Below are positions 1 to 23,959 of a stretch of 64,000 bases of DNA, one piece after another (position 1 is the first letter of the stretch; every line of letters starts with the position of its first letter). Position numbers and translations under genes: made by a program. Source of the DNA: Antarctobacter sediminis (GTDB lineage Bacteria; Pseudomonadota; Alphaproteobacteria; Rhodobacterales; Rhodobacteraceae); the NCBI RefSeq assembly GCF_019218285.1, contig NZ_JAHUZG010000003.1:1-64000 (forward strand), given 5' to 3'. Below the pieces are notes generated by a model. It saw nothing but the letters and a program-made list of their open reading frames with translations, was not told the DNA's origin and did not search any database.

Positions 1-1
1 T

Positions 2-52
2 GAAGGTGGCCGGACCGTGGGTTCGGGCGTTGTCTCGAAGATCCTGAAGTAA
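2..52 (+). CDS. tuf: Elongation factor Tu, C-terminal fragment
   Basis: Only the last 16 codons are inside the window. They read EGGRTVGSGVVSKILK and then TAA at 50-52, the highly conserved end of the EF-Tu C-terminal beta-barrel. EF-Tu delivers aminoacyl-tRNA to the ribosome as a GTP complex. Its position just before rpsJ is the usual end of the str operon (rpsL-rpsG-fusA-tuf). The 5' part lies outside the window, so the start and the number of tuf copies cannot be judged. Confidence 0.93.
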   Translation, partial: EGGRTVGSGVVSKILK

Positions 53-90
53 GACGGGTTCCCCCCGCCTTCGGCACCGACAAACACGAA

Positions 91-117
91 GGGCGCCTCC
101 AATCGGAGGCGCCCTTT
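91..117 (+). terminator. Intrinsic terminator of tuf
   Basis: A perfect 10-bp stem (GGGCGCCTCC / GGAGGCGCCC) with an AATC loop occupies 91-114 and is followed by TTT. It starts 38 bases after the tuf stop and separates the str operon from the S10 leader. Confidence 0.85.
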
Positions 118-168
118 CGCGTAGAAAAGCGCGCGCTGCAAAACACGTTGGATTCGGGATAAACGCCC

Positions 169-197
169 TTGTCACACTGGGGTGCAGACGATATACG
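169..197 (+). promoter_or_regulatory. Candidate sigma70 promoter of the S10 block
   Basis: TTGTCA (169-174), a 17-base spacer and TATACG (192-197) fit a housekeeping promoter. The -10 lacks T at its last position, which is common in Rhodobacterales and is the class known to be helped by CarD. Predicted transcription start is near 204, giving a leader of about 113 bases before rpsJ. Confidence 0.6.
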
Positions 198-221
198 CGC
201 GCAACGGCCAACTGGTCGTGC

Positions 222-247
222 AAGGCGGGGTGATTCCCCGCCTTTTG
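222..247 (+). terminator. Terminator-like hairpin in the rpsJ leader (candidate attenuator)
   Basis: AAGGCGGGG and CCCCGCCTT form a 9-bp stem around a TGATT loop (222-244 region), followed by a short T run. It begins about 18 bases after the predicted start site and 70 bases before rpsJ, so it lies in the S10 leader and not at the end of tuf, which has its own terminator. The arrangement recalls the attenuated S10 leader of enterobacteria, but L4 control is not shown here. Confidence 0.5.
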
Positions 248-316
248 GGTTCGATGAGGGTGCGCGGTGGTCGCGTGTCCTCCTCTCAACCCCAACATCG
301 TGAATAAGGCTGTTCA

Positions 317-622
317 ATGAACCAGAACATCCGTATCCGGCTCAAGGCGTTTGATTACCGCGTGCTTGACGCCTCCACCCAGGAGATCGTCAACACCGCC
401 AAGCGCACCGGCGCCACGGTTCGCGGGCCGATCCCGCTTCCGAACAAGATCGAGAAATATACCGTTCTGCGCGGTCCGCACGTGAACAAGAAGTCGCGTG
501 ACCAGTTCGAGATCCGTACGCACAAGCGTCTGCTCGACATCGTCGATCCGACCCCGCAGACCGTTGATGCCCTGATGAAGCTCGACCTCGCCGCTGGCGT
601 GGACGTCGAGATCAAGGTGTAA
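317..622 (+). CDS. rpsJ: 30S ribosomal protein S10
   Basis: This 101-residue protein is the small-subunit head protein S10, also known as NusE, the NusB partner in antitermination. The sequence [15 protein letters not shown] at the N-terminus and the [21 protein letters not shown] loop region are diagnostic, and length matches the family. It is the first gene of the S10 block; rplC follows after a 15-base gap. Its leader carries a promoter and a terminator-like hairpin. Confidence 0.98.
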
Positions 623-637
623 GGGAGGCCGATGGAC

Positions 638-1477
638 ATGCGCTCTGGAGTGATCGCAAAGAAGATCGGCATGACCCGTCTCTTTATGGAAGACGGCAAG
701 CAGATCCCCGTCACCGTGCTGCAACTGGACAACCTTCAGGTTGTCGCGCAGCGCACCAATGACCAGCACGGCTATACCGCTGTTCAGCTGGGCGCCGGCA
801 CCGCCAAGGCAAAACGCGTTAGCCAAGCCATGCGCGGCCACTTTGCCGTTGCCAAGGTCGAGCCGAAGCGGAAGGTCGTGGAATTCCGCGTCGCCCCCGA
901 AAACCTGATCGAAGTGGGCGAGGAAATCATCGCCGACCATTACTTCGAAGGTCAGTTCGTGGACGTCAGCGGCATCACCATCGGTAAAGGTTTTGCCGGT
1001 GGCATGAAGCGCCACAACTTCGGCGGTCTGCGCGCCACGCACGGCGTGTCGATCAGCCACCGTTCGCACGGCTCCACCGGTCAGTGTCAGAACCCCGGTA
1101 AGGTGTTCAAAGGCAAGAAAATGGCCGGCCACATGGGTTCGGTGCGTGTCACCACGCAGAACCTGCAAGTGGTCAAGACCGACAGTGACCGCGGCATCAT
1201 CATGATCAAGGGCGCCGTTCCCGGCCCCAAAGGATCCTGGGTGACTGTCAAGGACGCCGTCAAGAAGCCGACCCCGGACAATGTCATCCTGCCCGCCGCT
1301 CTGATGAGCGCCAAGCGTGAAGCGATGAAAGCCGCCGAGGAAGCCGCCGCCGCAGCCGCAGCAGAGGCCGAAGCCGAAGCCAAGCGTCTTGCCGAAGAGC
1401 AGGCCGCAGCCGAAGCAGACGCGCTGAAAGCAGCCGAGGCTGAAATCGAGGCCGAGAAGAAGGAAGGCGACGAATGA
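638..1477 (+). CDS. rplC: 50S ribosomal protein L3 with a long C-terminal tail
   Basis: L3 is an early 23S rRNA assembly protein that reaches toward the peptidyl-transferase centre. The core matches the family through VAIKKIGMTR-like N-terminus ([16 protein letters not shown]) and the GSTGQCQ motif, a site of glutamine methylation in many bacteria. The start at 638 lies 9 bases after GGGAGG (623-628); an in-frame ATG at 632 is only 3 bases away and is less likely. Residues from about 230 to 279 form an Ala/Glu/Lys-rich tail absent from E. coli L3 (209 residues) and likely to be a charged helix. The stop overlaps rplD by ATGA. Confidence 0.96.
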
Positions 1478-2091
1478 AACTCGACGTGATCAATCTCGAC
1501 GGCGCAGCAGCCGGTGAGGTCGAGCTGGACGAGGCCCTGTTCGGGCTCGAGCCGCGCGCCGACATTCTCCACCGCGTCGTCCGCTGGCAGCGCAACAAGG
1601 CGCAGGCCGGTACGCACAAGGTCAAGACCCGCTCGGAAGTGTCTTACTCGACCAAGAAGATCTATCGCCAGAAGGGCACCGGCGGCGCACGCCACGGCTC
1701 GCGCAAGGCACCGATCTTCCGCAAGGGTGGCATTTACAAGGGCCCGACCCCGCGTTCGCACGCCCATGAGCTGCCCAAGAAGGTCCGTAAGCTGGGCCTG
1801 ATGCACGCGCTGTCCGCCAAGGTCAAAGCCGGTTCGCTGGTTGTGATCGAAGCCGCAGATTGCGACGGCAAGACCAACACGCTGGCCAAGCAGGTTGCAA
1901 ACCTGGGCTGGAAGCGCGCGCTGGTCATCGACGGCGCACAGGTGAACGAGAACTTTGCCCGTGCAGCGGCCAACATCGACGGTCTCGATGTGCTGCCGAG
2001 CCAGGGCGCAAACGTCTATGACATCCTGCGTCGCGATACGCTGGTTCTGACCAAGGCGGGTGTCGAAGCACTGGAGGCTCGTCTGAAATGA
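1474..2091 (+). CDS. rplD: 50S ribosomal protein L4
   Basis: L4 is 205 residues here, the usual size. It binds 23S rRNA and its extended loop lines the exit tunnel; the loop is visible as [21 protein letters not shown]. In enterobacteria L4 also represses the S10 operon through the leader. The gene overlaps rplC and rplW by ATGA at both ends, so translation is probably coupled across the block. Confidence 0.97.
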
Positions 2092-2384
2092 GCGCGAAGG
2101 CAGAACACTACGACGTGATCCGCAAGCCGATCATCACCGAAAAGTCGACCATGGCGTCCGAAAATGGCGCAGTTGTCTTTGAAGTGGCGATCGACGCGGC
2201 CAAACCGCAGATCAAGGAAGCGGTCGAGGCGCTGTTCGGTGTCAAGGTGAAGGCGGTCAACACCACCATCACTAAAGGCAAGCAAAAGCGTTTCCGCGGC
2301 ACCCTGGGTCGTCGCAAGGACGTGAAAAAGGCCTATGTTACCCTCGAAGAGGGCAACACGATCGACGTGTCGACCGGTCTTTGA
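2088..2384 (+). CDS. rplW: 50S ribosomal protein L23
   Basis: At 98 residues this is L23, the exit-tunnel rim protein that docks trigger factor and SRP. The N-terminal [15 protein letters not shown] and the [17 protein letters not shown] segment are typical. It is the last gene of the first S10 block; in most bacteria rplB follows directly, but here a strong terminator and a glycosyltransferase gene come next. Confidence 0.97.
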
Positions 2385-2425
2385 TTGGATTTGCGGGCTG
2401 GGTTCATCCCCGGCTTGCAGACTTC

Positions 2426-2462
2426 GGAAAGGCCCTCGCAGCGATGCGGGGGCCTTTTCCGA
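2426..2462 (+). terminator. Intrinsic terminator after rplW
   Basis: GGAAAGGCCCTCGC (2426-2439) pairs with GCGGGGGCCTTTTCC (2446-2460) around a 6-base loop, with the T run inside the 3' arm. It lies 41 bases after the rplW stop, so the S10 cluster is transcriptionally cut here. Confidence 0.8.
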
Positions 2463-2597
2463 TTGAAGGGGCGGGAGCGGCAAAGCGCTGGCCCGTCGAG
2501 ACGAGGTGTTGTTCAATCCGTCCAAGGTTTGCGCTGCCTTGCCGGTCCGCTGTCCGGGGCCGCGGCGGACAAACGTTTCAGAAGGCTCAGGGGTGCC

Positions 2598-3626
2598 ATG
2601 GCGCGACTGCTTTTTACTTTGCCACGGTTTCACACCAACATGTGGTTCGCCGTGCGGCGTTTGCTGGCCGATGGGCATGAGGTTCGTCTGTTGGTCTGCA
2701 TGGCCTCAGGCGGCGAGGATCATTCGATGGTCGAACCTGTGGTCATGGGGAAATCTCCGGCTTACGAGGAGGTTGAAAAGGAAGTCACCGATTTCCGTCC
2801 CGACCTTGTGATCATTCGCAATGCATGGGCCATCAGCCGCCGTGCCTCACGCGCGGCGCGACGGCAGGGCATTCCGCGCATCCTGTACAATCAGGTGCCT
2901 GACGATGTGCTGACCGGTTTCGGACGGCGCGTGTTGTTGCGATATAAAGGGCTGCCTGTTGAGCGGTTCACCCCGGTGCGCGGGCAAAACCGCAGCAAGC
3001 CGCGCGACCCCTACGCGCGATTCATGCCTTTACCGGTCGATGTTCTTCCGCATCAGGTACTGCCGCGCGAGGACGACCGGCTAAAGGTTCTGTTGGTTGG
3101 CAAACTGGGCGCCGAACGCAAGAACCAGCATGTGCTGATTCAGAAGATCGAGGAAATGAACGCGCAGGACCGGATCAGCCTGACTCTGGCCGGGACGGTT
3201 CCGGGACCGGACAATGCGCATTACGCAACGATTCAGGACATGGCGCGTCGCCCGTGGATCAAGCTCGCTGGTTCTGTCCCTTTCCTTGAGATGGGGACGC
3301 TGCACGCCTCGCATGACGTATGCATTCTGCCCAGTTTCGATGAGTTGCGCGGCACCTCTCCACTTGAGGCAATGGCCTATGGCGCGGTTCCGATGATTTC
3401 GAACCAGTGCGGCTCTGCCGGGGATCTGACCCATGGTGATGACGGCGTGGTTTTCGATCCATTGCACATGGAGCAAGCCGTCGAATGGTTGCTGAAATTG
3501 GATGCGGATCGCGCGGAGTTGGACCGAATGAAACAGGCCGCCCATGCAACATGGCGGCGCGACCTCAGCGAAGAGGCGTTTTCGCGCAATATCCGTGCCT
3601 TGCTGGACGATTTCGGAGTGTCGTGA
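2598..3626 (+). CDS. GT-B glycosyltransferase, family 4-like
   Basis: The predicted 342-residue protein has the two-domain GT-B layout: an N-terminal acceptor half opening MARLLFTLPRF and a C-terminal Glycos_transf_1 half. The latter contains VLLVGKLGAERKNQ, HASHDVCILPSF and SPLEAMAYGAVPM, the nucleotide-sugar site with its conserved Glu. The start at 2598 was chosen because this domain begins there; the open frame upstream contains the rplW terminator. Sugar donor and acceptor cannot be named, but such enzymes usually build surface polysaccharide or glycolipid. It is a non-ribosomal insertion inside the S10 cluster. Confidence 0.82.
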   Translation: MARLLFTLPRFHTNMWFAVRRLLADGHEVRLLVCMASGGEDHSMVEPVVMGKSPAYEEVEKEVTDFRPDLVIIRNAWAISRRASRAARRQGIPRILYNQVPDDVLTGFGRRVLLRYKGLPVERFTPVRGQNRSKPRDPYARFMPLPVDVLPHQVLPREDDRLKVLLVGKLGAERKNQHVLIQKIEEMNAQDRISLTLAGTVPGPDNAHYATIQDMARRPWIKLAGSVPFLEMGTLHASHDVCILPSFDELRGTSPLEAMAYGAVPMISNQCGSAGDLTHGDDGVVFDPLHMEQAVEWLLKLDADRAELDRMKQAAHATWRRDLSEEAFSRNIRALLDDFGVS

Positions 3627-3701
3627 CGACAGTTTTTTTCCGGGCGTGCCAACTGTCCAAACCCGGCTTGGTCCGAGTTGGCGGAATGGCTCGGCTGCCA
3701 C

Positions 3702-3730
3702 TTGACGTGACGCCCAACCTCGCCTAAACG
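3702..3730 (+). promoter_or_regulatory. Candidate sigma70 promoter of the rplB block
   Basis: TTGACG (3702-3707), 17 bases, TAAACG (3725-3730). The -35 is near consensus and the -10 lacks T at its last position. Predicted start is near 3737, about 155 bases before rplB, so the second S10 block can be transcribed independently of rpsJ. Confidence 0.68.
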
Positions 3731-3745
3731 ACCCCATCCGCAGGG

Positions 3746-3777
3746 AGCCCCGGATTCGTCCGGGGCTTTGCTTTTCT
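3746..3777 (+). terminator. Terminator hairpin in the rplB leader (glycosyltransferase terminator and/or attenuator)
   Basis: AGCCCCGGA and TCCGGGGCT form a perfect 9-bp stem with a TTCG loop (3746-3767), followed by TTGCTTTTC. It would end transcripts of the upstream glycosyltransferase, but it also lies about 9 bases downstream of the predicted rplB start site, so transcripts from that promoter must read through it. Confidence 0.7.
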
Positions 3778-3795
3778 TTGCGGATGACGCGAATC

Positions 3796-3848
3796 GGGCA
3801 CCTTCGGGGGCCTATACCACTGGCCACCTTCGGGGGGCTGATAACATA
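3796..3848 (+). repeat. Two imperfect 26-base tandem units in the rplB leader
   Basis: The sequence runs GGCACCTTCGGGGGCCTATA and then GGCCACCTTCGGGGGGCTGATA. Both units carry C-TTCG-G, the core of a stable UUCG tetraloop hairpin, and the first can form a 7-bp stem with one mismatch. They lie 45-95 bases before rplB, within its predicted 5' untranslated leader. Confidence 0.55.
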
Positions 3849-3891
3849 GGCCGGGTTTCGATCTGGCCGTAAGCAACGGAAGACAGAAAGC

Positions 3892-4734
3892 ATGGCACTC
3901 AAGTCGTACAAGCCGACGACGCCGGGCCAGCGCGGGCTGGTGCTGATCGACCGTTCGGAGCTGTATAAAGGACGCCCCGTCAAGGCCCTTACCGAAGGTC
4001 TGACGAAGAAAGGCGGCCGGAACAACACCGGACGGATTACCGCACGTCGTCGCGGCGGTGGCGCAAAGCGCCTCTACCGGATCGTCGATTTCAAGCGGAA
4101 CAAGTTCGACGTCAACGGCATCGTTGTTCGTATCGAATATGACCCCAACCGCACGGCATTCATCGCACTCGTCCAGTATGACGACGGCGAGCAGGCCTAT
4201 ATCCTCGCCCCCCAACGTCTGGGCGTGGGCGACAAGGTTGTCTCGTCGGCAAAGGCCGACATCAAGCCGGGCAACTGCATGCCGTTCTCGGGTATGCCGA
4301 TCGGTACCATCGTGCACAACATCGAGCTGAAGCCCGGCAAGGGCGGCCAGATCGCACGCGCCGCGGGCACCTATGCCCAGTTCGTCGGCCGTGACGGTGG
4401 CTACGCTCAGATCCGCCTGTCCTCGGGCGAACTGCGCATGGTCCGTCAGGAATGCCTGGCCACGGTTGGCGCGGTCTCGAACCCCGACAACTCGAACCAG
4501 AACCTCGGCAAGGCCGGCCGCGTCCGCCACATGGGCAAGCGTCCTTCCGTCCGCGGTGTCGTCATGAACCCGATCGACCACCCGCACGGCGGTGGTGAAG
4601 GCCGTACCTCGGGTGGCCGTCACCCGGTGACGCCTTGGGGCAAGCCGACCAAGGGCAAGCGCACCCGCAACACCAACAAGGCATCGCAGAAGCTGATTAT
4701 CCGCTCGCGTCACGCCAAGAAGAAGGGGCGGTAA
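3892..4734 (+). CDS. rplB: 50S ribosomal protein L2
   Basis: L2 is 280 residues, close to the usual length, and helps form the peptidyl-transferase region and subunit bridge B7b. Visible signatures are [15 protein letters not shown], the OB-like half [14 protein letters not shown], and the C-terminal [19 protein letters not shown], which contains the conserved His near the catalytic site. It opens the second S10 block; rpsS follows after 3 bases. Confidence 0.98.
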
Positions 4735-4737
4735 TAT

Positions 4738-5016
4738 ATGTCGCGTTCCGTCTGGAAAGGTCCGTTCGTCGATTCCTACGTCCTGAAGAAGGCCGAGAAG
4801 TCGCGCGAGTCGGGCAAAAACGAAGTCATCAAGATCTGGTCGCGCCGCTCGACCATTCTGCCGCAGTTCGTCGGCCTGACTTTCGGTGTCTACAACGGCC
4901 AGAAGCACGTTCCCGTGATGGTCAGCGAAGACATGATCGGTCAGAAGTTCGGTGAATATTCGCCGACCCGCACCTACTACGGCCACGCGGCCGACAAAAA
5001 AGCCAAGAGGAAGTAA
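4738..5016 (+). CDS. rpsS: 30S ribosomal protein S19
   Basis: This 92-residue protein is S19, a head protein that contacts the A-site tRNA and pairs with S13. [11 protein letters not shown] at the start and [23 protein letters not shown] are diagnostic. It is separated from rplB by 3 bases and from rplV by 3 bases, consistent with one polycistron. Confidence 0.98.
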
Positions 5017-5019
5017 GCC

Positions 5020-5400
5020 ATGGGCAAGGATAAGAATCCCCGCCGCGTGGCGGACAACGAAGCGATGGCAAAGCTGCGCATGCTGCGCACCTCGCCGCAG
5101 AAGCTGAACCTCGTCGCCGCCCTGATCCGCGGCAAGAAGGTGGACAAGGCCCTCACGGACCTGACCTTCTCGAAGAAGCGGATCGCCGTTGACGTGAAAA
5201 AGTGCCTGCAATCGGCTATCGCCAACGCCGAGAACAACCACGGTCTGGACGTCGACGAACTGGTCGTCGCCGAGGCCTATGTCGGCAAGAACCTGGTCAT
5301 GAAACGCGGTCGCCCCCGGGCCCGTGGTCGTTTCGGCCGGATCAACAAGCCGTTCTCGGAACTCACCATCAAGGTGCGCCAGGTTGAGGAGCAAGCCTAA
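5020..5400 (+). CDS. rplV: 50S ribosomal protein L22
   Basis: At 126 residues this is L22, whose beta-hairpin lines the exit tunnel and is the target of many macrolide-resistance mutations. The hairpin tip is seen as [14 protein letters not shown]. Its last base overlaps the rpsC start (TAATG), so the two are translationally coupled. Confidence 0.97.
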
Positions 5401-6134
5401 TGGGTAACAAGACCAATCCGATCGGCATGCGCCTTCAGGTGAACCGCACCTGGGACAGCCGCTGGTACGCTGATACCAAGGACTACGGTGATCTGCTGCT
5501 CGAGGATCTCAAGATCCGCGAATTCATTTTCAACGAGTACAAGAACCCGCCGAAGCAGGCCGGCATCAGCCGCGTCATCATCGAGCGTCCGCACAAGAAG
5601 TGCCGTGTGACCATTCACACCGCGCGTCCGGGCGTCATCATCGGCAAGAAAGGCGCGGACATCGAGGTGCTTCGCAAGAAGCTGGCCACGATGACCGACT
5701 CGGAACTGCACCTCAACATCGTCGAGGTCCGCAAGCCCGAGCTGGACGCACAGCTGGTTGGCGAATCCATCGCCCAGCAGCTGGAGCGCCGGGTCTCCTT
5801 CCGCCGCGCGATGAAGCGGGCCGTGCAGAACGCCATGCGCATGGGCGCCCAGGGTATCCGGGTGAACGTCGCTGGTCGTCTGGGTGGTGCGGAAATCGCG
5901 CGTACCGAATGGTACCGTGAAGGCCGCGTGCCGCTGCACACGCTGCGCGCCGACATCGATTATGCCAACGTCGAAGCATCGACCCCCTACGGCATCATCG
6001 GCATCAAGGTCTGGATCTTCAAGGGCGAGATCATGGAACATGATCCGCAGGCCCGCGATCGCAAGAACCAGGAACTCCAGGACGGTCCGGCCCCCCGTGG
6101 CGCCGGTGGCGGCCGCCGGGATGATCGGAGGTAA
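5400..6134 (+). CDS. rpsC: 30S ribosomal protein S3
   Basis: S3 (244 residues) guards the mRNA entry tunnel. The KH domain carries the GxxG loop in [11 protein letters not shown], and the C-terminal half has [16 protein letters not shown]. The end is a short Gly/Arg-rich tail ([13 protein letters not shown]), common in alphaproteobacteria. rplP starts 2 bases after the stop. Confidence 0.98.
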
Positions 6135-6136
6135 CA

Positions 6137-6550
6137 ATGCTTCAGCCTAAGCGTACAAAATTCCGCAAGGTTCAGAAGGGTCGGATCAAGGGCCTCGCCA
6201 AAGGCGGTTCCGATCTGAACTTCGGCACCTACGGTCTGAAGGCTCTCGAGCCCGAGCGTGTCACCGCGCGCCAGATCGAAGCAGCCCGTCGTGCCATGAC
6301 GCGTCACATGAAACGTCAGGGCCGCGTCTGGATCCGTATCTTCCCGGACACCCCCGTGACCGCAAAACCCATCGAAGTTCGTATGGGTAAAGGTAAAGGT
6401 TCGGTGGACCGCTGGACCTGCAAGGTCAAGCCGGGCCGCGTGATGTTCGAGATCGACGGCGTGAACGAAGACATCGCGCGTGAGGCCCTTCGCCTTGCGG
6501 CGATGAAGCTGCCGATCAAGACGCGCGTCGTGGTTCGCGAAGACTGGTAA
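6137..6550 (+). CDS. rplP: 50S ribosomal protein L16
   Basis: L16 (137 residues) organises the A-site and the peptidyl-transferase region. The N-terminus [16 protein letters not shown] and [21 protein letters not shown]-type core are standard. The Arg hydroxylated in E. coli L16 (Arg81) is present as Arg82 in EVRMGKGKG, one position later because of a one-residue insertion. It ends the second block; a strong terminator follows and rpmC lies 6 kb downstream. Confidence 0.98.
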
Positions 6551-6582
6551 GCAGCGGGTTTCGGCCCAATGTCAAAATTTGG

Positions 6583-6616
6583 CCCCCGGCGCATGAGCGG
6601 CGGGGGTTTTTCTTTT
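6583..6616 (+). terminator. Intrinsic terminator after rplP
   Basis: A 10-bp stem with one G-G mismatch (CCCCCGGCGC / GCGGCGGGGG) and an ATGA loop at 6583-6606 is followed by TTTTTCTTTT. It closes the rplB-rplP block 32 bases after the stop codon. Confidence 0.88.
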
Positions 6617-6660
6617 GCGCGTGGTTTCCTAGGGTTGTGGGGATCTGACAAGGTAACCTG

Positions 6661-7332
6661 ATGATTGCACGCCTGCACCGCCACCTGATCCAGACCGTGA
6701 TGAGAGCCGCCGACCGGGGCCAACCCTTGGCCCGTTGGATCGTCGAACGCGAAACGAGACGGGCCTATTCAGAAATCCCGATCCCCTCTCCGATCGTGCG
6801 CGGGCAGTTTTTGATCCCCGACCTCAGCCAGCCCTTCGGTGATGACGATGACGACTTCATGGGCGATCCGCTGCGCGTGCCTTTGGAGCCAAGGCCGGTT
6901 TTGGCTGAGGCAGTCGTTGGGCAACGGGTAGAGGATCTGTCCTGCATGCTGGGATCATATGGGGCGGGTGGCTATGGGTTCTTCGGGCTGATGCTGGGTG
7001 AGGGATGGTTGATCCTGCCGATCATCGGCGCGGCCGAATGGCTGATGCTCGATGACCGGATCCTTGAAAGCCCGGTGGACCGGGACGCCTGGATCAAAGA
7101 AGGCGATGACAGCGCGCTGTTGCGGCGGTTGACCGGGAGCCGGATCACGGAGGCCGATTTCCGGCGGCACGGGTTGACCCTGAAATTCAACAATGGGGCG
7201 GTTCTGCGTATTGATGATGCCCCAGGCAGCCGTGCACCCCTGCCGGAGAACGGCAAGCCGCGCGCTTTTCCGGCGGATGATAACCTTGCCGAAGCGATCT
7301 TTCTCAGCCCGTCGGGCGAATTGTACCTGTAA
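6661..7332 (+). CDS. Hypothetical protein
   Basis: I do not recognise the family. The protein is 223 residues with an acidic run (FGDDDDDFMGD, around residue 60) and a hydrophobic stretch near residues 100-125 (GGYGFFGLMLGEGWLILPIIGAAEWLML). There is no clear signal peptide. Codon usage and low Lys content match neighbouring genes, so it is likely a real gene. It converges with the hydrolase gene at 7336, with only three bases between the stop codons. Confidence 0.6.
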   Translation: MIARLHRHLIQTVMRAADRGQPLARWIVERETRRAYSEIPIPSPIVRGQFLIPDLSQPFGDDDDDFMGDPLRVPLEPRPVLAEAVVGQRVEDLSCMLGSYGAGGYGFFGLMLGEGWLILPIIGAAEWLMLDDRILESPVDRDAWIKEGDDSALLRRLTGSRITEADFRRHGLTLKFNNGAVLRIDDAPGSRAPLPENGKPRAFPADDNLAEAIFLSPSGELYL

Positions 7333-7335
7333 AGC

Positions 7336-8052
7336 CTATCCGGGAAAGATCGCGGCCATCGCGCTGTCAAAGCGCGCCCATGTCATGGTCGCCTTGTTGC
7401 CTGCGTATCCTTCGTAATAGGATTCGCCGGATGGGAGGGGCAGGCCAGCCCAGACCTTGGCCAGTCGGTACATAAAGCCCCGGCGCGAAATTTCCCCCCG
7501 TTGGAACGCATGAAAGCCGGCATCCGCCAGCAGTTTGTTTGCCATGCGGTCCTGAAGGTCTGGCGAAAAGCGGGCCTGCGGATTGATCCCGAGATCGGCG
7601 ATGAGATGCCGCAGGGTATCCGGGATGACTTGGTAGCGACCGATGGCATGCGGCTGGCCCGGTGTAGCTGCAATCCAGTCGAGAATTTCTTGAACGGTCA
7701 GTTCTGTCGGGGGTTTGGGGGGCTTGATCTTGGCGCCGTGGATGACCGCGTCATAGCCACCGTGGCGCGACTCCGCCTCGGAAATCAGGCTGAGCAGTTT
7801 TGCTGTGGCGCCGTTCCCTGCCAATGTTCCAGAGCGGGCAGGGGCCGGTACGTCCGGTTCCGGCAAGGGGACCAGAAATCCCAGCCGATCGCCGCTGCCC
7901 AACAAGCCTTGCGATGGGGCGGAAGCACGCATGGCGATCAAGGGGCCGCGCGCCCGGGTTTCCCCCTGTGGGAAAAGCGAGGCGCTTTGCGCAACGGTTT
8001 GGCCGCCAAGAACCAGCAAGGTCGGCAAGATCAGGCTTCGGATCGGGAACAT
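7336..8052 (-). CDS. Secreted endolysin-like (GH104-type) peptidoglycan hydrolase
   Basis: The 238-residue protein starts with a Sec signal peptide (LILPTLLVLGGQTVAQSAS). The C-terminal half, from about residue 88, has the lysozyme-like pattern ISEAESRHGGYDAV, where the first Glu is the likely catalytic acid. LTVQEILDWI and HAIGRYQVIPDTL follow, a layout shared with phage endolysin-type transglycosylases. The middle is Pro/Ala-rich. It probably cuts periplasmic murein; no holin, spanin or phage structural gene is nearby, so it seems to be a resident gene. The exact family call is by motif only. Confidence 0.66.
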   Translation of the reverse strand: MFPIRSLILPTLLVLGGQTVAQSASLFPQGETRARGPLIAMRASAPSQGLLGSGDRLGFLVPLPEPDVPAPARSGTLAGNGATAKLLSLISEAESRHGGYDAVIHGAKIKPPKPPTELTVQEILDWIAATPGQPHAIGRYQVIPDTLRHLIADLGINPQARFSPDLQDRMANKLLADAGFHAFQRGEISRRGFMYRLAKVWAGLPLPSGESYYEGYAGNKATMTWARFDSAMAAIFPG

Positions 8053-8142
8053 TCTGCTCTCACGTCTGATTTGCGGGGACCATGCGCCTCAGAAGTTGAG
8101 ATTCCATTTCCCCCCGCCGTTTGGCTGGGCTAAAGCCCGGCC

Positions 8143-8760
8143 ATGACCCAGATCCGTTCGCTTTTCGCCACCCGCCTGTACCAGGCCCGCCTTGCGGAGC
8201 ATGGTGACATCGACACAGCCGAGCTTGAAGGTTCGTGCTATTCCATCGCCGAGGACGACGAGGCGGGGCAGGACTGGTGCGAAGAACAGGGGTATCCGGG
8301 ATATACCTCTTATGCGTCGCTGACGGATCTGCCCTGGCGATTCCCGATTTTCGCGGATCTGGTCAAGGTTCTGGACCAGCATGTCGCCGCCTTTGCGAAG
8401 GATCTTGAGTTCGAACTGGGCGACAAGGAGCTTGTCCTTGAGGATATCTGGATCAATATCCTGCCAGAGGGCGGCACGCATTCCAGCCATATCCATCCGC
8501 ATTCGGTGATTTCGGGCACAACCTATGTTGCGATGCCCGAAGGCGCATCCGCGCTGAAACTCGAGGATCCGCGCCTGTCGATGATGATGGCGGCGCCGAC
8601 CCGCAAGAAAGGGTGCCGCGAGGAGCTGCGGTCTTTTGTCTATATCGCGCCGCAGGTCGGGGACGTCTTGCTGTGGGAAAGCTGGTTGCGCCATGAGGTT
8701 CCGCTGAACATGGCCGAAGAAAACCGGGTCTCGGTGAGCTTCAACTACAAATGGGCGTGA
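8143..8760 (+). CDS. 2OG-Fe(II) oxygenase family protein (TIGR02466-like)
   Basis: At 205 residues the protein fits a small family of putative 2-oxoglutarate/Fe(II) dioxygenases. A His-rich metal motif (HSSHIHPHSVISGTTYV) lies near residue 115; the distal His and the 2OG-binding Arg are seen in WLRHEVPL and ENRVSVSFNYKW near the C-terminus. The fold would be a double-stranded beta-helix acting in the cytoplasm. The substrate is unknown. It is divergent from the hydrolase gene and 1.6 kb from rplP, which is notable because L16 is hydroxylated by an unrelated 2OG enzyme in E. coli. Confidence 0.75.
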   Translation: MTQIRSLFATRLYQARLAEHGDIDTAELEGSCYSIAEDDEAGQDWCEEQGYPGYTSYASLTDLPWRFPIFADLVKVLDQHVAAFAKDLEFELGDKELVLEDIWINILPEGGTHSSHIHPHSVISGTTYVAMPEGASALKLEDPRLSMMMAAPTRKKGCREELRSFVYIAPQVGDVLLWESWLRHEVPLNMAEENRVSVSFNYKWA

Positions 8761-8777
8761 GCGCACCGCAGCGGCCT

Positions 8778-8806
8778 TTGACAGTAACAGTTCCGTGAAA
8801 TATTTA
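8778..8806 (+). promoter_or_regulatory. Strong sigma70 promoter of the ParB-like gene
   Basis: TTGACA (8778-8783), 17 bases, TATTTA (8801-8806): a perfect -35 and a good -10 at optimal spacing, 40 bases before the start codon at 8846. Confidence 0.75.
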
Positions 8807-8847
8807 TGACGACCGGGTGCAAGCTCTTTAGCCAGGTTGTCATAAAT
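8802..8847. repeat. 9-bp inverted repeat flanking the 5' leader
   Basis: ATTTATGAC (8802-8810) overlaps the -10 element and its exact inverse GTCATAAAT (8839-8847) overlaps the start codon. The arms are 28 bases apart. Such placement could be two half-operators for an autoregulator, or a stem if transcription begins upstream of the predicted start. Confidence 0.6.
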
Positions 8848-9553
8848 GTCCTTTCGCTCCTTTACCGATCTTGAGCAGTTTCGCCGCACGATCGAAGCAC
8901 ATGTGCCGCGCAAAGTTCTGCGCGATATCTGGAATATGCTGCGGTTCGGACTGGAAGGGCCGCGGTCGGATGCGGCGATCTACGTGGCACCCTCACGTGT
9001 CAACCTAGGGCTGGGCAAACAGCGCAGCGCCCGTCAGTTCCGCCGTCAGAACAGCGGAGCCGTGGTTGCGGGTGATTGGGATCTGAATCGCTTTGACATC
9101 GAAACCAACACCAAGCTGCGCAGTTGCCGGATGCACTGGCAAGAGGGCGCGGATTGGCAAGAGACACCGATCTACCAACGTCTGGTCAAAGAAATCGCCA
9201 CCGGGCACCGGCCTGACGGCTGCGCGACAATCGAGGATGTCCATGCGCGCTATGCGGCGCTGGACAAGCTCTACGCCGAGACGCGGCAAAGGGGGCGTTT
9301 GTTGCCTAAGGCCGAATTGCCCGACTATTTCCGCCGCGAGCATGGCGGCGTACTGGTGCATGTGGCCCGTGACGGAACCTGCCTGCGCAGCGGCGGTGGC
9401 GCGCATCGCTTTGCCATTGCCCGGATTCTTGGCCTGCCGGAAATGCCCGCCCAGATCGGGGTGGTGCATCCCGATGCAATCCGGAACGGCCATTTGGCCA
9501 AGTTGCTGCGGTCCAGCTTTGGCGAGGGTGGCAACGGCGCTTCGCTGGCCTAG
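8846..9553 (+). CDS. Conserved protein with a ParB/sulfiredoxin-like C-terminal motif
   Basis: The 235-residue protein is mostly unrecognised. Near residues 160-205 it has GGVLVHVARDGTCLRSGG and HRFAIARILGLPEMPAQIG. This is the pattern of the ParB/Srx-like fold, in which a conserved G(N)HRxxxA segment follows a beta-hairpin. Proteins of this type act as nucleotide-binding or nuclease-like modules, but no activity can be assigned. It is monocistronic, with its own strong promoter and an unusual inverted repeat in the leader; no clear Shine-Dalgarno precedes the ATG. Confidence 0.6.
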   Translation: MSFRSFTDLEQFRRTIEAHVPRKVLRDIWNMLRFGLEGPRSDAAIYVAPSRVNLGLGKQRSARQFRRQNSGAVVAGDWDLNRFDIETNTKLRSCRMHWQEGADWQETPIYQRLVKEIATGHRPDGCATIEDVHARYAALDKLYAETRQRGRLLPKAELPDYFRREHGGVLVHVARDGTCLRSGGGAHRFAIARILGLPEMPAQIGVVHPDAIRNGHLAKLLRSSFGEGGNGASLA

Positions 9554-9574
9554 AGCGGCCTCACACTGACGCTG

Positions 9575-11173
9575 TCAGCTGGCGGAGCCAACCGCCCTTT
9601 CACCTGAGGGTGCGGCATCCAGAAGATTGGCGATCCCCGCGCGCAGCTCTGCGGCGGGCACCGGTTTCGACAGAACCAGATCCACGGTTCCGTCTTCGGC
9701 CGAGCCAAGCCCGCGCGCCAGCCCGGTCAACAGGATCACCGGGGTCGAGGCGTCCACCGCCTTGATCCGGGCGGCAATCTCGACACCTGTCGAGGACCCG
9801 GGAACATAATTGTCCAATAGCGCCAGATCATACCCGCCCTTGTCCACCGCGCGCAGGGCTTCTTCGGAGGTGGCTGCCTCGGTCACGGTGAATCCCCATC
9901 CCTTGAGATTGCGGCGCAGGATGTCACGGATCTGTTCTTCGTCCTCCAGCAGCAGGATATGATGCCTGTCAAACGGCGTCGGCCCGGCCTTCGGAGTCTT
10001 CCGTTCCAGCAACGGGTTGGATCGGTGCATCGGAAACAACAGCCGAACGTTGGTCCCCGCGCCTGGGGTCGACGAGATCGCGATTTCACCGCCTAGTTGG
10101 CGCATGAACCCCGCCGCCATGGATAGCCCGAGCCCCGACCCCCTGGAGCGCGACTTGGTGGTAAAGAAAGGTTCGGTCACCCGGTCGATGTGCTCCGCCG
10201 GAATGCCGGTACCGTCATCCTGAACACACAGGCAAATCAGATCGCCTGCGAAAGGGGGGGGAATGTCGGTGCAGTTATCCGGCAGCTTGGTGCGGATGCG
10301 GATCGTACCGCCCTCGCGGATCGCGTCGCGGGCGTTGATCAGGATGTTCAGGATCACCGATTGCAGGTTGTCCCGATCCGCGAAGATCGGTGCCGGGCCT
10401 TTTGGGCGAATGACCTCGACCCGGGCTTTTTGAAGGGTGGTCCGTTCAAAAAGCGTCACTGCCCTGTCCACCTCTTCTGCCAGGTCAAGGGCCGTGGGAA
10501 GGATTGTCGCTTTTTGCGCAAAATTCAGAAGGCTGCGGGTCAGCATGCCGCCACGCCCCGCCGCTGAAACGATTTCAGACAACAATTGACTGCGCAGGCC
10601 GTCGGGCAGGTCGTCCTGAAGCAGTTCGGCATTCCCCATGACCACGGCGAGGATGTTGTTGACATCATGGGCGACGCCAGCGGTCAATTCGCCCAAAGCG
10701 GCAAGCCGATTGGCCTGCGCCTTGCGTTCTTCTGCCAGCCGGGATTCTGTCACGTCAAGGCTGCTGCCCAGACCGCGGACAATGCGGCCGCTGGCATCGC
10801 GTTCGGGCGCGACAACTTCGCGGATATAGCCGATGCTGCGGTCCCGCCGATAAAAACGGTATTCCATCTCGATCGTTTCGCCCAGCAACAGCCGTTGATA
10901 CGCTTCGCGCAGGATGTCCCGATCTTCGGGGTGGACCATGTCCATCTCACCGCCAAGACCGCTGACGGCCTCGATGAACTCTGACGGGGTCAATCCGAAG
11001 GTTTCGGCGTGCTGGACCGAGCAGACTTCAACAATGGCGTCGAGGACGTTGAAGACGAAATAGCCCAATTGGGCAATGCGAGCAGCCTGTTCCAGCATAA
11101 GCGCATGAGACGCCCCGTCCGGCCCGATACGGCTGAATAGCGGGCCATCCCCCGGTATTTCCCGTTCGGCCAT
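9575..11173 (-). CDS. PAS-containing hybrid sensor histidine kinase
   Basis: The 532-residue protein has no membrane segment, so it senses a cytoplasmic signal. Order: one PAS domain (about 35-145), a dimerisation/phosphoacceptor helix with VAHDVNNILAVVMGNAELL (His169), an ATPase domain with N-box ILNILINARDAI and G-box GSGLGLSMAAGF, and a C-terminal receiver from about 400 with LALLDNYVPG and LSKP. An in-frame GTG at 11197 lies at or upstream of the predicted transcription start, so the ATG at 11173, 9 bases after AGGGG, is preferred. No partner regulator is adjacent. Confidence 0.88.
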   Translation of the reverse strand: MAEREIPGDGPLFSRIGPDGASHALMLEQAARIAQLGYFVFNVLDAIVEVCSVQHAETFGLTPSEFIEAVSGLGGEMDMVHPEDRDILREAYQRLLLGETIEMEYRFYRRDRSIGYIREVVAPERDASGRIVRGLGSSLDVTESRLAEERKAQANRLAALGELTAGVAHDVNNILAVVMGNAELLQDDLPDGLRSQLLSEIVSAAGRGGMLTRSLLNFAQKATILPTALDLAEEVDRAVTLFERTTLQKARVEVIRPKGPAPIFADRDNLQSVILNILINARDAIREGGTIRIRTKLPDNCTDIPPPFAGDLICLCVQDDGTGIPAEHIDRVTEPFFTTKSRSRGSGLGLSMAAGFMRQLGGEIAISSTPGAGTNVRLLFPMHRSNPLLERKTPKAGPTPFDRHHILLLEDEEQIRDILRRNLKGWGFTVTEAATSEEALRAVDKGGYDLALLDNYVPGSSTGVEIAARIKAVDASTPVILLTGLARGLGSAEDGTVDLVLSKPVPAAELRAGIANLLDAAPSGERAVGSAS

Positions 11174-11201
11174 GCGGTTTACCCCTGTTCTGGTCACGTA
11201 A

Positions 11202-11231
11202 ACTATACGAAAGGAGTCAGTGTTCCCTCAA
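11202..11231 (-). promoter_or_regulatory. Candidate promoter of the hybrid kinase
   Basis: Read on the minus strand: TTGAGG (11231-11226), 18 bases, TATAGT (11207-11202). The predicted start near 11195 leaves a leader of about 22 bases before the ATG at 11173. Confidence 0.6.
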
Positions 11232-11351
11232 GTGAAGTTCTTTGCCTGTGTCGACTATGTGCGAAATTGTGTGCAGTTTCCCTAAGGTCAGCCCGTATAT
11301 CTTTACGCCTCTGGGCCACCCTCATGACCAGAGTGAAACTGGGGGTTTGAA

Positions 11352-11798
11352 ATGGAACTGCATTCCTGTTGTGCCGGGCGTGATCACCAACGCTCAAAGA
11401 GGGCTGATATCCCGCTCGCGACCAGTGACAAGCCGATGGGCAAGTCCGCACAATCCGTCGGTCATCGCGCCAAAGCCGCCGTTCGCGACGCCTGCGAGGC
11501 GGGGGTGTGCCTGACACAGGGGCAAGCGGCTTCGACAATTGCGCGGGGGACGACCGAACTCGTGGTTGAGGCGATGTATGTCAGCATGACCTATGCCGCT
11601 GTCGCCGTAAGTGGTGAGGTGGCCGAGCCCGTTGTTCCCGAGGCGTCTGGCAGTCCAGTGGATGAGTTGCCCGCCGTCGAGCCGCCGTCCGCTACCAAAG
11701 ACGCAGCCGCCCCTGCGGGATATGCGGCGTCGCTGAGTTTTGTCTCCTTCGAGGCAAGTTATGTGTCGGACAGCGTCGCGCTGGAACTATTGCGGTAG
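11352..11798 (+). CDS. Possible hypothetical protein
   Basis: An open frame of 148 codons lies in the 763-base stretch between the kinase and the VasI-like gene. The C-terminal two-thirds is rich in Ala, Val, Glu and Pro (for example VSGEVAEPVVPEASGS) with few Arg, unlike a shadow frame. The N-terminus is less convincing, and a start at 11439 (MGKSAQSVGHR) is an alternative. No promoter or good ribosome site was found and no family is recognised. The rest of the stretch holds only the kinase promoter. Confidence 0.35.
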   Translation: MELHSCCAGRDHQRSKRADIPLATSDKPMGKSAQSVGHRAKAAVRDACEAGVCLTQGQAASTIARGTTELVVEAMYVSMTYAAVAVSGEVAEPVVPEASGSPVDELPAVEPPSATKDAAAPAGYAASLSFVSFEASYVSDSVALELLR

Positions 11799-11936
11799 GC
11801 GTGCCCTCTGGTGGGTCGAATTGTTTCCAAACAATGTGATTGGCGTCAAATTTAAGCGAGTATACAAAGCATTAGGTTCAACACGGTGCGCCGGTTGACC
11901 ACTTTGAGCACTGTTCATTTCAAAAGGACGCTGAGT

Positions 11937-12557
11937 ATGCGGTTCGTCATTCTTTCCTTGGCCATCGGGCTTTCCCCCTTGGCGGTGCATGCACAAGATC
12001 TAGCGGCATGTCTTGGGGTGCCGAATGATCAGGCGCGTTTGATTTGCTACGATGCGCTTGCCGGATACAAGGCCGCGCCCGCCCCCGATCAGGAGGATGA
12101 CAGCCCGGTTTCTGCGGCTGTTTCGAAATGGCTGTTTGTTGAGAAAACGGACCCGTTTTCAGGCAAGGAGACATCCTATGTTGTGCTTGAGAGCGACAAG
12201 GCAAATGCGCGGATGACGGATGCGCCGGTTTCGACCTTCGTGCGGTGCGACGGCAAAGGTGGGCACGAGATCTTTGTCGTTTCCGGTGGCTACATTGGCA
12301 GTACAAGGGATACGGTCCCGGTTCGCTACAAGTTCGGCGAGAACGAGCCCATTTCGGAGAAGTGGGGCGAATCCACCAGCGGCAAGGCGGCCTTTCTGCC
12401 TGACCGTTTCAGGGATTTCCGGGCAGGCCTGTTGACCGGCGAGAGCTTTGTTTTCGAGTTCACGGATTTTCGCGGAACCCGGTCCAACGCGCGCTTTCCC
12501 GAGACGCCATTGAGCGAGAAGTTTGACCATGTCATTGGCGGTTGCCAGGCGGGCTAG
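11937..12557 (+). CDS. Secreted VasI/TagO-like protein
   Basis: The 206-residue protein starts with a signal peptide (MRFVILSLAIGLSPLAVHAQ). It continues with the pattern of type VI secretion-associated VasI/TagO proteins: ACLGVPNDQARLICYDALAG near the mature N-terminus, a central RCDGKGGHEIFVVSGGYIGS strand region, VRYKFGENEP, then W and F positions typical of the family. The start at 11937 follows AAAAGGACG and is the only one giving a signal peptide. No type VI structural gene is near, so its role here is unknown; periplasmic location is the firmest inference. Confidence 0.55.
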   Translation: MRFVILSLAIGLSPLAVHAQDLAACLGVPNDQARLICYDALAGYKAAPAPDQEDDSPVSAAVSKWLFVEKTDPFSGKETSYVVLESDKANARMTDAPVSTFVRCDGKGGHEIFVVSGGYIGSTRDTVPVRYKFGENEPISEKWGESTSGKAAFLPDRFRDFRAGLLTGESFVFEFTDFRGTRSNARFPETPLSEKFDHVIGGCQAG

Positions 12558-12588
12558 ACCCGCGCGCCAAGGGTGTTGCAGATAATCC

Positions 12589-12617
12589 TTGCATAGTTGG
12601 GGATTCTGGCATAGTGC
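12589..12617 (+). promoter_or_regulatory. Candidate promoter of the rpmC block
   Basis: TTGCAT (12589-12594), 17 bases, TAGTGC (12612-12617). The leader of about 90 bases contains two small palindromes, CAGGGTGACCCTG and TGCCTGCAGGCA. The -10 is weak, so this is tentative. Confidence 0.4.
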
Positions 12618-12710
12618 AGCCGCTCATCCACGGACTCCACCGGAATCAGGGTGACCCTGCGTGCCTGCAGGCAGGGGCCTACCGGTGATGTTGCAGCAAA
12701 GGAGAGGCGC

Positions 12711-12923
12711 ATGAACGCCCAGGAACTCCGTGACAAGACCCCGGACGAACTCCGGGACCAGCTTGTCCAGCTCAAGAAGGAGGCTTTCAACCTCCGCTTT
12801 CAGGCGGCCACCGGCCAACTGGAAAATACCGCGCGTATGCGCGAGGTGCGTCGCAGCGTTGCCCGCATCAACACCATCCTGAACGAAAAAGCCGCTGCCG
12901 CGGCCTCGACTGCGGAGGCGTAA
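12711..12923 (+). CDS. rpmC: 50S ribosomal protein L29
   Basis: L29 (70 residues) is a small helical protein at the tunnel exit. [18 protein letters not shown] and the [22 protein letters not shown] core are typical. The start at 12711 follows AAAGGAGAGG. The gene normally follows rplP directly, but here it is 6.2 kb downstream and needs its own promoter. rpsQ starts 3 bases after its stop. Confidence 0.96.
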
Positions 12924-12926
12924 CGA

Positions 12927-13235
12927 ATGCCCAAGCGTATCCTGCAAGGCACCGTCACCTCGACCGCCAACAAGCAGACCGTGACCGTCCAGGTCGTCCG
13001 TCGCTTCAAGCACCCCGTGCTTCAGAAGACCATCAAAAAGTCCAAGAAGTACCGCGCCCACGATGAGAACGAACAGTTCAACGTCGGCGATAGCGTCCTG
13101 ATCCGCGAATGCGCTCCGAAATCCAAGACGAAGCGCTGGGAAGTCATGACCGAAGAAATGCAGGCCGAACACGAGAAGCAACGCGCCGAAGCCGCCGCCG
13201 CCGCTCAGCAGGCCGAAGCAGAAGCCGCCCACTAA
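12927..13235 (+). CDS. rpsQ: 30S ribosomal protein S17 with an acidic C-terminal tail
   Basis: S17 (102 residues) is an OB-fold primary 16S rRNA-binding protein. [21 protein letters not shown] and [19 protein letters not shown] fit the family. The last 25 or so residues ([21 protein letters not shown]) extend beyond the ordinary end (E. coli S17 is 84 residues) and resemble the Ala/Glu tail on L3 in this genome. Confidence 0.96.
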
Positions 13236-13243
13236 AGGGCGAT

Positions 13244-13267
13244 CCGGGGCCGTATTCGCGGCCCCGG
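13244..13267 (+). promoter_or_regulatory. GC-rich hairpin between rpsQ and rplN
   Basis: CCGGGGCCG and CGGCCCCGG form a perfect 9-bp stem with a 6-base loop in the 97-base gap. It has no T run, so it is more likely an RNA stability, processing or protein-binding element than a terminator. Confidence 0.5.
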
Positions 13268-13332
13268 TGACATTCGAAACCCCCGGGTCAATGTTCTCTG
13301 GAAGAGCGGCCCGGGACGTCGGGAGATAACTT

Positions 13333-13701
13333 ATGATCCAGATGCAGACCAATCTGGATGTCGCTGACAACTCCGGAGCCCGGAAAGTTCAGTGCATCAA
13401 GGTTCTGGGCGGTTCCCACCGCCGCTATGCCTCTGTCGGCGACATCATCGTGGTGTCGGTGAAGGAGGCCATTCCGCGTGGTCGCGTGAAGAAAGGTGAC
13501 GTCCGCAAGGCCGTCGTCGTGCGCACCGCCAAGGAAGTTCGCCGTGAAGACGGCACCTCGATCCGCTTTGACCGCAACGCCGCCGTGATCCTGAACAACG
13601 CAGGTGAGCCGGTTGGCACCCGTATCTTCGGGCCGGTCGTGCGTGAGCTGCGTGCCAAGAACTTCATGAAGATCATCTCGCTCGCCCCGGAGGTGCTGTA
13701 A
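13333..13701 (+). CDS. rplN: 50S ribosomal protein L14
   Basis: L14 (122 residues) sits at the subunit interface. [19 protein letters not shown] and the [20 protein letters not shown] signature are diagnostic. It follows a 97-base gap with a stable hairpin; rplX starts one base after its stop. Confidence 0.98.
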
Positions 13702-13702
13702 G

Positions 13703-14014
13703 ATGGCTGCCAAGCTGAAAAAGGGTGACACGGTCATCGTTCTGACCGGCAAGGACAAGGGCAAAACCGGCGAGATCGTCAGCGTTGACCCCAAGGCCGG
13801 CAAGGCCGTTGTCGATGGTCTGAACATCGCCATCCGTCACACTCGCCAGAGCCAGACCAGCCAGGGCGGCCGCCTGCCCAAGGCCCTGCCGATCGACCTG
13901 TCGAACCTGGCCTACGTCGACGCCAACGGCAAACCGACCCGCGTTGGTTTCCGCATGGAAGGCGACAAAAAGGTTCGCTACGCCAAGACCACGGGGGACG
14001 TGATCGATGCTTGA
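13703..14014 (+). CDS. rplX: 50S ribosomal protein L24
   Basis: L24 (103 residues) is an assembly initiator with a KOW domain, seen as [20 protein letters not shown]. Its 3' end overlaps the rplE start by 8 bases. Confidence 0.97.
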
Positions 14015-14588
14015 TATGGAAAGCTACACCCCGCGCCTGAAGGCTCAGTATCGCGAGACCATCAAGGCGGCGATGAAAGAGCAGTTCGGCTATACGAACG
14101 ACATGCAGATCCCGCGTCTGGAAAAGATCGTTCTGAACATCGGCTGCGGCGCCGAAGCGGTTCGTGACTCGAAGAAAGCCAAGTCGGCTGTCGAAGATCT
14201 GACCAAGATCGCCGGCCAGCAGGCCGTCGGCACCAAGGCCAAGCACAGCCACGCGCCGTTCCGTCTGCGCGAAGGCATGATCATCGGCGCCAAGGTTACC
14301 CTGCGTGACGTGCGCATGTATGAATTCCTGGACCGCCTGGTGACCGTGGCAATGCCCCGCATCCGCGACTTCCGCGGCGTGAAGCCGTCCTTCGACGGTC
14401 GCGGCAACTTTGCCATGGGTCTGAAAGAACACATCGTGTTCCCGGAAATCGACTTCGACAAGGTTGACGAAGTCTGGGGCATGGATGTGGTCATGACGAC
14501 CAATGCCAAGGATTTCGGCGAGCACACCGCCGATGCCCAGGCCAAAGCGTTGCTGACGCATTTCAACGTACCGTTCACCAAGGCGTAA
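14007..14588 (+). CDS. rplE: 50S ribosomal protein L5
   Basis: L5 (193 residues) binds 5S rRNA and contacts P-site tRNA. Recognised by [31 protein letters not shown] and [12 protein letters not shown]. The start at 14007 ([15 protein letters not shown]) matches alphaproteobacterial L5 and overlaps rplX; an internal ATG at 14016 is a less likely alternative. Confidence 0.97.
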
Positions 14589-14600
14589 GAGGACAAAGAC

Positions 14601-14906: not shown

Positions 14907-14918
14907 GGAGGGTATGAG

Positions 14919-15311: not shown

Positions 15312-15325
15312 GGAGGCCTGAACAC

Positions 15326-15859: not shown

Positions 15860-15871
15860 GGACGCAAGGCA

Positions 15872-22595: not shown

Positions 22596-23959
<1,364 letters not shown>

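Follow-up and report, generated by a model that had tools for sequence, protein, structure and literature searches.

The window analysed here is a stretch of 64,000 nucleotides (nt) of Antarctobacter sediminis (assembly GCF_019218285.1, contig NZ_JAHUZG010000003.1, positions 1 to 64,000), which begins with the tuf-rpsJ-rplC-rplD-rplW stretch of a Roseobacter-type genome. The end of tuf is followed by the open reading frames (ORFs) of four ribosomal proteins, all on the plus strand: rpsJ (S10, 317-622), named by eye and with the help of relatives, rplC (L3, 632-1477), in agreement with the conserved gene order, rplD (L4, 1474-2091) and rplW (L23, 2088-2384), the final gene of the unit. The leader between tuf and rpsJ carries, on the same strand, a promoter (169-197), a hairpin where the RNA is predicted to begin (H0, 204-219), a terminator-like hairpin (H1, 222-246), a larger hairpin with an internal loop (H2, 247-292) and a small hairpin close to the start codon (301-316). 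The initial annotation had described this region as a promoter followed at once by a terminator-like hairpin, i.e. as a leader attenuation of rpsJ, and H2 was not mentioned in it. In the relatives, H2 is the main conserved element upstream of rpsJ, and it is the subject of most of what follows.

H2 was delineated from an alignment of 86 leaders (A1), from pair counts and from a covariance model (R1). Its lower helix P1 (247-251 with 288-292, 5 pairs) is followed by a bulged C252, by the pairs G253-C287 and A254-U286 and by a 1x3 internal loop in which T255 stands opposite CUC (283-285); the upper helix P2 begins with the pair G256-C282. Across the leaders the loop is near-invariant, with Y on one strand and CUM on the other, i.e. 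C[CUM]U / A[Y]G, and the upper stem above P2 is often capped by an RUGRN-like loop. The helices, on the other hand, change: P1 alternates between U-A, C-G and G-C, and P2 between A-U, U-A and C-G. L016 and L018 have A-U in place of G253-C287, while L017 and L110 differ in the 5' strand of the loop and, in our reading, can pair with the bulge moved by one position.

Alignment A1 holds 86 distinct cores, identical ones being removed and the best-paired candidate being taken for each row. It excludes 16 of 109 leaders without the pattern, two leaders with fewer than 6 of the 8 pairs (L061 and L111) and L011, whose start was misplaced by the pattern and which R1 finds at 37.2 bits; L099 gave no rpsJ start. 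In A1, 94.0% of 1362 cells are paired as compared to 74.6% in shuffled alignments (0/500 shuffles), the number of cells with both sides changed is 251 as compared to 82.5 (0/500), and the covariation score is 0.505 as compared to 0.177 (0/500), the best slid control reaching 0.142. H2 is a covarying, conserved RNA structure, as is expected of a ribosomal-protein leader. A strong stem near the 5' end might also serve to stabilise the rpsJ mRNA in general, or to direct its processing by RNase, rather than act as an operator. In H2, however, it is the stem letters that vary and the small internal loop that is kept, and one clade retains the same loop letters in swapped strand order (see below). 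We infer that variable stems around a kept loop speak for recognition of the loop more than for stability alone, and we regard a stability or processing element as improbable.

The distribution of H2 was followed with R1, using a cut-off of E 0.01 for the counts of family genomes and strict filters. Matches are found in 184 of the 295 genomes of the window's GTDB family and in 176 of the 260 good-quality ones, where some genomes may lack the contig end carrying the leader. A closer view is given by 80 named rpsJ loci, the best 80 when 586 confirmed candidates were ranked by similarity to the S10 of the window; they lean to near kin. R1 matches 63 of them at E 2.8e-5 or less, and all 63 matches end 12-56 nt before the rpsJ start, the named loci having been chosen around rpsJ. 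Among the matches listed up to E 1 in the 587 kb there is only one other, at E 0.94. The remaining 17 loci comprise 6 with the swapped form, 2 that are cut at a contig end (L022 and L063) and 9 with neither form. Within the window, 247-292 is the sole R1 match (63.6 bits), the next score being 12.0 bits (E 0.58).

At the level of the class, R1 matched 5 of 289 genomes, and 4 of these belong to the window's own family. The fifth match (L117, contig C63 of genome G155, E 0.0024) was rejected, as its neighbours appear by eye to be an enolase-superfamily gene and a Sir2-type gene; the rpsJ of this genome is on another contig. Upstream of rpsJ in 28 loci of other alphaproteobacterial families, neither strand order of the core was found (0/28). 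To judge from these genomes, H2 is kept across much of the family, and there is no convincing case outside it. A search of the whole window with Rfam 15 at the gathering score gave no match at 247-292, and at E up to 5 the only one among the matches listed that overlaps H2 lies at 227-254 on the other strand (E 4.7).

The swapped form mentioned above deserves to be described separately. Seven leaders (L057, L059, L061, L066, L072, L083 and L156) carry GAAC-CUM-U...A-Y-GUUC before rpsJ, that is, the C[CUM]U / A[Y]G loop of H2 in reversed strand order. These rows were not fetched for the swapped form; they were used to build a second model, R2. R2 matches 9 of the 295 family genomes at E 1.3e-4 or less, and all 9 matches are at rpsJ. 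One of these genomes is that of L156, one has the sequence of L057 and 7 are new, and none of the 9 is among the listed R1-positive genomes. Eight further matches in the family at E 2e-4 to 0.04 (L187-L194) were rejected because their loci contain no rpsJ, and there are 3 weak R2 matches in the class (E about 6e-4). In a strict order test, in which a core needs at least 3 pairs on each side, 99 of 160 distinct family leaders have the original order, 13 the swapped order, 0 both and 48 neither, the values from shuffles being 0.75 for the original and 0.55 for the swapped order. Seven of the 13 swapped leaders (L179-L181 and L183-L186) were recruited by R2 itself, and the unbiased count is 6, as L083 fails the test.

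Pairing in the 14 distinct swapped rows is again above shuffles (93.6% of cells as compared to 83.6%, 0/500), as is the covariation score in an alignment fitted to R2 (0.303 as compared to 0.134, 0/500); the pairs changed on both sides number 4 as compared to 2.6 (43/500). The basal GAAC/GUUC is invariant in these 14 rows. Both forms have C or A at the loop place 285 and G-C and A-U at the pair 253-287, where the swapped form adds U-G (9/14) and one U-U. A loop letter A rarely stands opposite U: the counts are 1/13 versus 38/73 in A1 (Fisher p 0.005, the rows not being independent) and 0/10 in the swapped rows.

In a tree of S10, L3 and L4, made by a quick method and rooted at the midpoint, the window's nearest rows are L007, L008, L010, L014 and L019. 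The six named swapped rows need a single change in this tree (Shimodaira-Hasegawa-like approximate likelihood ratio test, 94), while the original-order label needs 7. The swapped rows adjoin L062, near Paracoccus and Thioclava, and formless Cereibacter-type rows stand just outside. Since the swapped rows correspond to one change and are nested among motif-bearing rows, the swap looks derived, although such change counts do not separate gain from loss. With a single clade, the chance for one lineage is about 0.3% per leader (0.55 of 160) multiplied by a handful of lineages, i.e. perhaps 2%, and coincidence or convergence keeps some probability. On balance we lean towards a natural strand swap of a putative protein-binding RNA site in one clade, that of Rhodobacter calidifons, R. 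amnigenus and their relatives. In such a swap the helix that was once capped by a loop would become the base, and the former base would become the capped stem. If this is true, recognition by the ligand would be limited to the loop and a few adjacent pairs, and the pair of leaders would offer a ready-made natural experiment on the minimal site of a ribosomal protein.

Two further observations concern the forms of the leader. The swapped leader at L186 (1501-1537) is capped by a loop GGAUGAUCC that resembles the AUGAU loops of many original-order hairpins. Six loci of Cereibacter/Pseudorhodobacter type (L052, L074, L078, L153, L159 and L166) have neither form and share a hairpin, roughly GGCAGAGGG...TTTCCCGCC, which is possibly a third leader type.

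The region between H2 and the rpsJ start bears on the level at which control would be exerted. In 73 of 82 distinct spacers there is a small hairpin whose 3' arm holds a GG in the Shine-Dalgarno (SD) zone, as compared to 22.5 of 82 expected from dinucleotide shuffles. The arms of these hairpins change together (GCC/GGC, UCCC/GGGA, CCC/GGG, AUCCC/GGGAU, CCCU/AGGG). Some of the nine spacers that lack the hairpin (L053, L065 and L112) have an AAGGA-like site soon after P1. The SD-covering hairpins of the relatives point to translation as the level at which control may be exerted.

Taking these points together, we propose, with a probability of roughly 70%, that 247-292 is the core of an undescribed autogenous ribosomal-protein leader of rpsJ-rplC-rplD-rplW, a candidate in which protein binding is predicted. 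Transcription would begin near 204 and the RNA would fold into H0, H1, H2 and the small hairpin at the SD sequence. One of the ribosomal proteins of the unit, when in surplus, would then bind the near-invariant 1x3 loop of H2 and make the adjoining ribosome-binding site less accessible; translation of rpsJ would fall, and that of rplC, rplD and rplW would follow by coupling. Feedback by a ribosomal protein on a structured leader was already among the suggestions of the initial annotation and appears plausible, with the difference that the main element would be H2 and not H1. As the leader probably controls these four genes, the ligand is most likely S10, L3, L4 or L23. L4 is our tentative first choice, since it is the regulator of the E. 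coli S10 operon (as described in PMC10931766), and L3, S10 and L23 share the rest. A factor encoded outside the unit (e.g. S1, an RNA chaperone or a Nus factor; NusG or NusB had been proposed before) might bind H2 instead, which we consider very improbable, more so than a stability or processing element.

Several observations weigh against this proposal. Firstly, 48 of the 160 leaders fail both strict core tests, some of them being R1-positive, and 9 of the 80 named rpsJ loci carry neither form. Secondly, the number of pairs in A1 changed on both sides is hardly above that in shuffles (11 as compared to 9.8, 43/500 as high), and the loop letters of A1 are constant in part by construction, as the rows were collected by a pattern for those letters. 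Thirdly, the window itself is among the 9 of 82 spacers without the standard SD-covering stem; it has a different small hairpin, UGAAUA-AGGC-UGUUCA at 301-316, predicted by folding, with the SD GG in its loop. Fourthly, a likeness of the loop and its flanking helices to 23S rRNA, looked for in the 23S of a relative, was not above shuffles: 3 places were found within 400 nt (6.5 in shuffles) and 22 at any distance (25.6 in shuffles). Mimicry of 23S by H2 is unsupported and we make no such argument from the scan; a likeness to helix 18 of E. coli 23S was a lead only and was not confirmed. Finally, the choice of L4 is an analogy with E. coli only.

The promoter of the leader consists of TTGTCA (169-174), a 17-nt spacer and TATACG (192-197), and the start is predicted near 204, 7 nt past the -10 box. 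A consensus scan of 1-16000 lists neither this promoter nor H1; its -10 rule requires T at position 6 and its terminator rule 5 T in 8. The same scan found 6 promoters where 3.5 were expected and 24 terminators where 16.2 were expected, and from the single sequence neither the promoter nor the hairpin is remarkable. The comparison was made with 30 distinct leaders, the window included, that were chosen by a TGATT in the 25 nt before H2; L016 and L018 were counted even though their TGATT stands in other surroundings than the H1 loop. TTGYC is present in 28 of the 30 (L046 and L085 lack an exact copy), and TA opens the -10 box; when spacers of 16-18 nt were tried and the best -10 match was taken, 17 was the best in 28/28. 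Because TTGYC and the 17-nt spacing are kept in 28/30 leaders, it is well supported that the promoter is more than chance, and the 17-spaced promoter of the initial annotation stands.

H0, a 6-bp hairpin predicted from the fold and from relatives, would form the very 5' end of the RNA. A hairpin of at least 5 bp within 34 nt after the -10 box is present in all 28 leaders with a -35 box, with 17 distinct arm pairs, a count that stands without a shuffle control and includes L016 and L018, which have another hairpin at this place. The fold of 204-316, in which H2 is one of the structures, has z = -3.29, and 0 of 200 shuffles were equally low.

H1 was correctly located by the initial annotation, which had placed a 9-bp hairpin about 18 nt past the predicted start. 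It reads AAGGCGGGG-TGATT-CCCCGCCTT at 222-244 (9 bp, a loop of 5, UGAUU in the RNA) and begins 18 nt past 204. The TTTT at 243-246 has two T's paired in the stem and two beyond it, and GGG is next in the window. The sequence of H1 is near-constant within the clade and variable beyond it, and its core pattern is found twice in the window's own genome, at 224 and at C3:370197. As an attenuator, H1 would end a large share of the transcripts at a length of about 42 nt, producing a short leader RNA, except when termination is prevented by a ribosomal protein or a Nus factor; its constancy within the clade is in line with this idea. An intrinsic attenuator in the sense of a GC stem followed by at least 5 T in 8 nt is not present at 222-246, although the terminators of this genome may need fewer. 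The few others looked at in the window, those of tuf (TTT) and rplW (TTTT), also have short T runs.

The leaders of relatives were compared as well. A hairpin of at least 6 bp directly upstream of H2 is present in 53 of the 86 distinct leaders and missing in 32, with one leader too short to judge. Counted over the 8 nt that follow the outermost G-C pair, the longest T run never exceeds 4 in the 53 hairpins: it is 4 in 21, 3 in 14, 2 in 13, 1 in 4 and 0 in 1. Among the 28 leaders whose loop contains TGAT, the class of the window, the run has 4 T's in 18, 3 in 7 and 2 in 3, and this kept short U run speaks somewhat for attenuation. H2, however, is kept without H1, also where tuf ends 8-25 nt upstream of H2 (L015, L048, L100, L108 and L110); no promoter fitting the simple pattern was found in these five leaders. 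If we add that the terminator scan does not list H1 and that the SD-covering hairpins point to translation, attenuation at H1 appears unlikely as the main mechanism. The TTTT after the last G-C pair in 18/28 leaders of the class leaves it some probability there, but attenuation is probably not the main point of this leader.

As for the genes, the order S10-L3-L4-L23 is kept in all 81 sequences (the 80 loci and the window), and the rpsJ leader probably controls these four genes. L2 follows L23 in all 69 sequences where L2 was found, at a distance of 25 to 2865 bases. In the window this gap (2385-3891) contains a glycosyltransferase-like ORF (named by eye, within 2385-3626) as well as the leader of L2, and the rplW-rplB gap is a frequent place of insertion inside the S10 cluster of the family. 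A terminator-like hairpin with TTTT (2428-2458, plus strand) was read from the sequence after rplW and is not listed by the terminator scan. Upstream, tuf has its own intrinsic terminator, as had been stated before, which we locate at 89-116 (plus strand, a 12-bp stem with TTT); the scan listed it on the minus strand, the stem being symmetric. A further stretch of the same genome, G000:C12:25497-25615, matches window 1-119 (the end of tuf and the terminator) at 98% and stops before the rpsJ promoter; it is probably a second copy of tuf.

The next unit, from rplB onward, is preceded by a match to the L2-Alphaproteobacteria leader (RF03142, 3822-3889, plus strand, E 9.6e-13), its single match in the whole window at the gathering score, and a terminator-like hairpin (3744-3769) lies before it. 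RF03142 is present in 11 of the 16 loci tested (16 of the 80 named ones) and was not matched in L004, L012, L021, L026 and L075, of which L004 also had no L2 match in the gene-order check. Directly before the full match there is a partial one at 3796-3813 (model positions 1-18, E 0.85), a possible tandem copy of the first hairpin of this leader; these two are the only places in 1-6000 that the model matches. At secY, which was placed by a motif, a GC-rich hairpin (22542-22572) is followed by TTTT (to 22576), about 20 bases before the likely start at 22596; Rfam gave no match but noise at this hairpin. The recurrence of the rpsJ layout at rplB and secY, put forward in the initial annotation, holds in as much as there is a hairpin at each place, with TTTT at secY, and rplB has the known RF03142 leader in addition. 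Another pair of hairpins, with GTGCGC/GCGCAC-type arms, is found at 16238-16296 between rplR- and rpsE-like genes, the second being followed by TTTATTT.

It is useful to compare the H2 leader to known systems. In E. coli, the S10 leader to which L4 (uL4) binds also sits before rpsJ and regulates genes of the S10 cluster, as H2 would, but there one leader serves an eleven-gene operon (as given in PMC2704228), whereas here the unit would have four genes and the core is a single 46-nt hairpin with a 1x3 loop. RF03142 is likewise alphaproteobacterial and lies in the same gene cluster, before rplB in the window, but its model gives no match at 247-292 up to E 5, and R1 on the RF03142 site gives 9.1 bits (E 3.8), a partial match at the level of noise. 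The rpsJ motif RLC-47-1, described from three genera of Peptostreptococcaceae with 87 representatives (PMC11109978), and the S10 leader reported from Firmicutes including Clostridia (PMC7247131) share the placement before the S10 gene and differ in their reported hosts, the comparison being one of placement and host. For the swapped form, the nearest parallel is given by the permuted hammerhead ribozymes (PMC10085705), in which a conserved core also occurs with changed strand order; these are, however, ribozymes with three blocks in non-circular orders, while here a two-strand internal loop is concerned, where exchanging the strands amounts to a circular permutation.

Table 1 of the survey that found the L2 leader lists L2 and no rpsJ leader for the Alphaproteobacteria (PMC7247131), and in the parts of the open-licence papers covered by our search no rpsJ leader is described for this class. 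We regard 247-292 as a good candidate for a new ribosomal-protein leader, one whose strand-swapped variant is unusual. With its 46 nt, H2 is small enough for binding and structure work, and a genuine swap would reveal directly the nucleotides recognised by the protein. Regulation of the S10 cluster is best known from Gammaproteobacteria and Firmicutes, and the H2 leader would fill a gap for one large alphaproteobacterial family. It also suggests that the S10 cluster of this family may consist of two feedback units, one from rpsJ to rplW and another from rplB onward.
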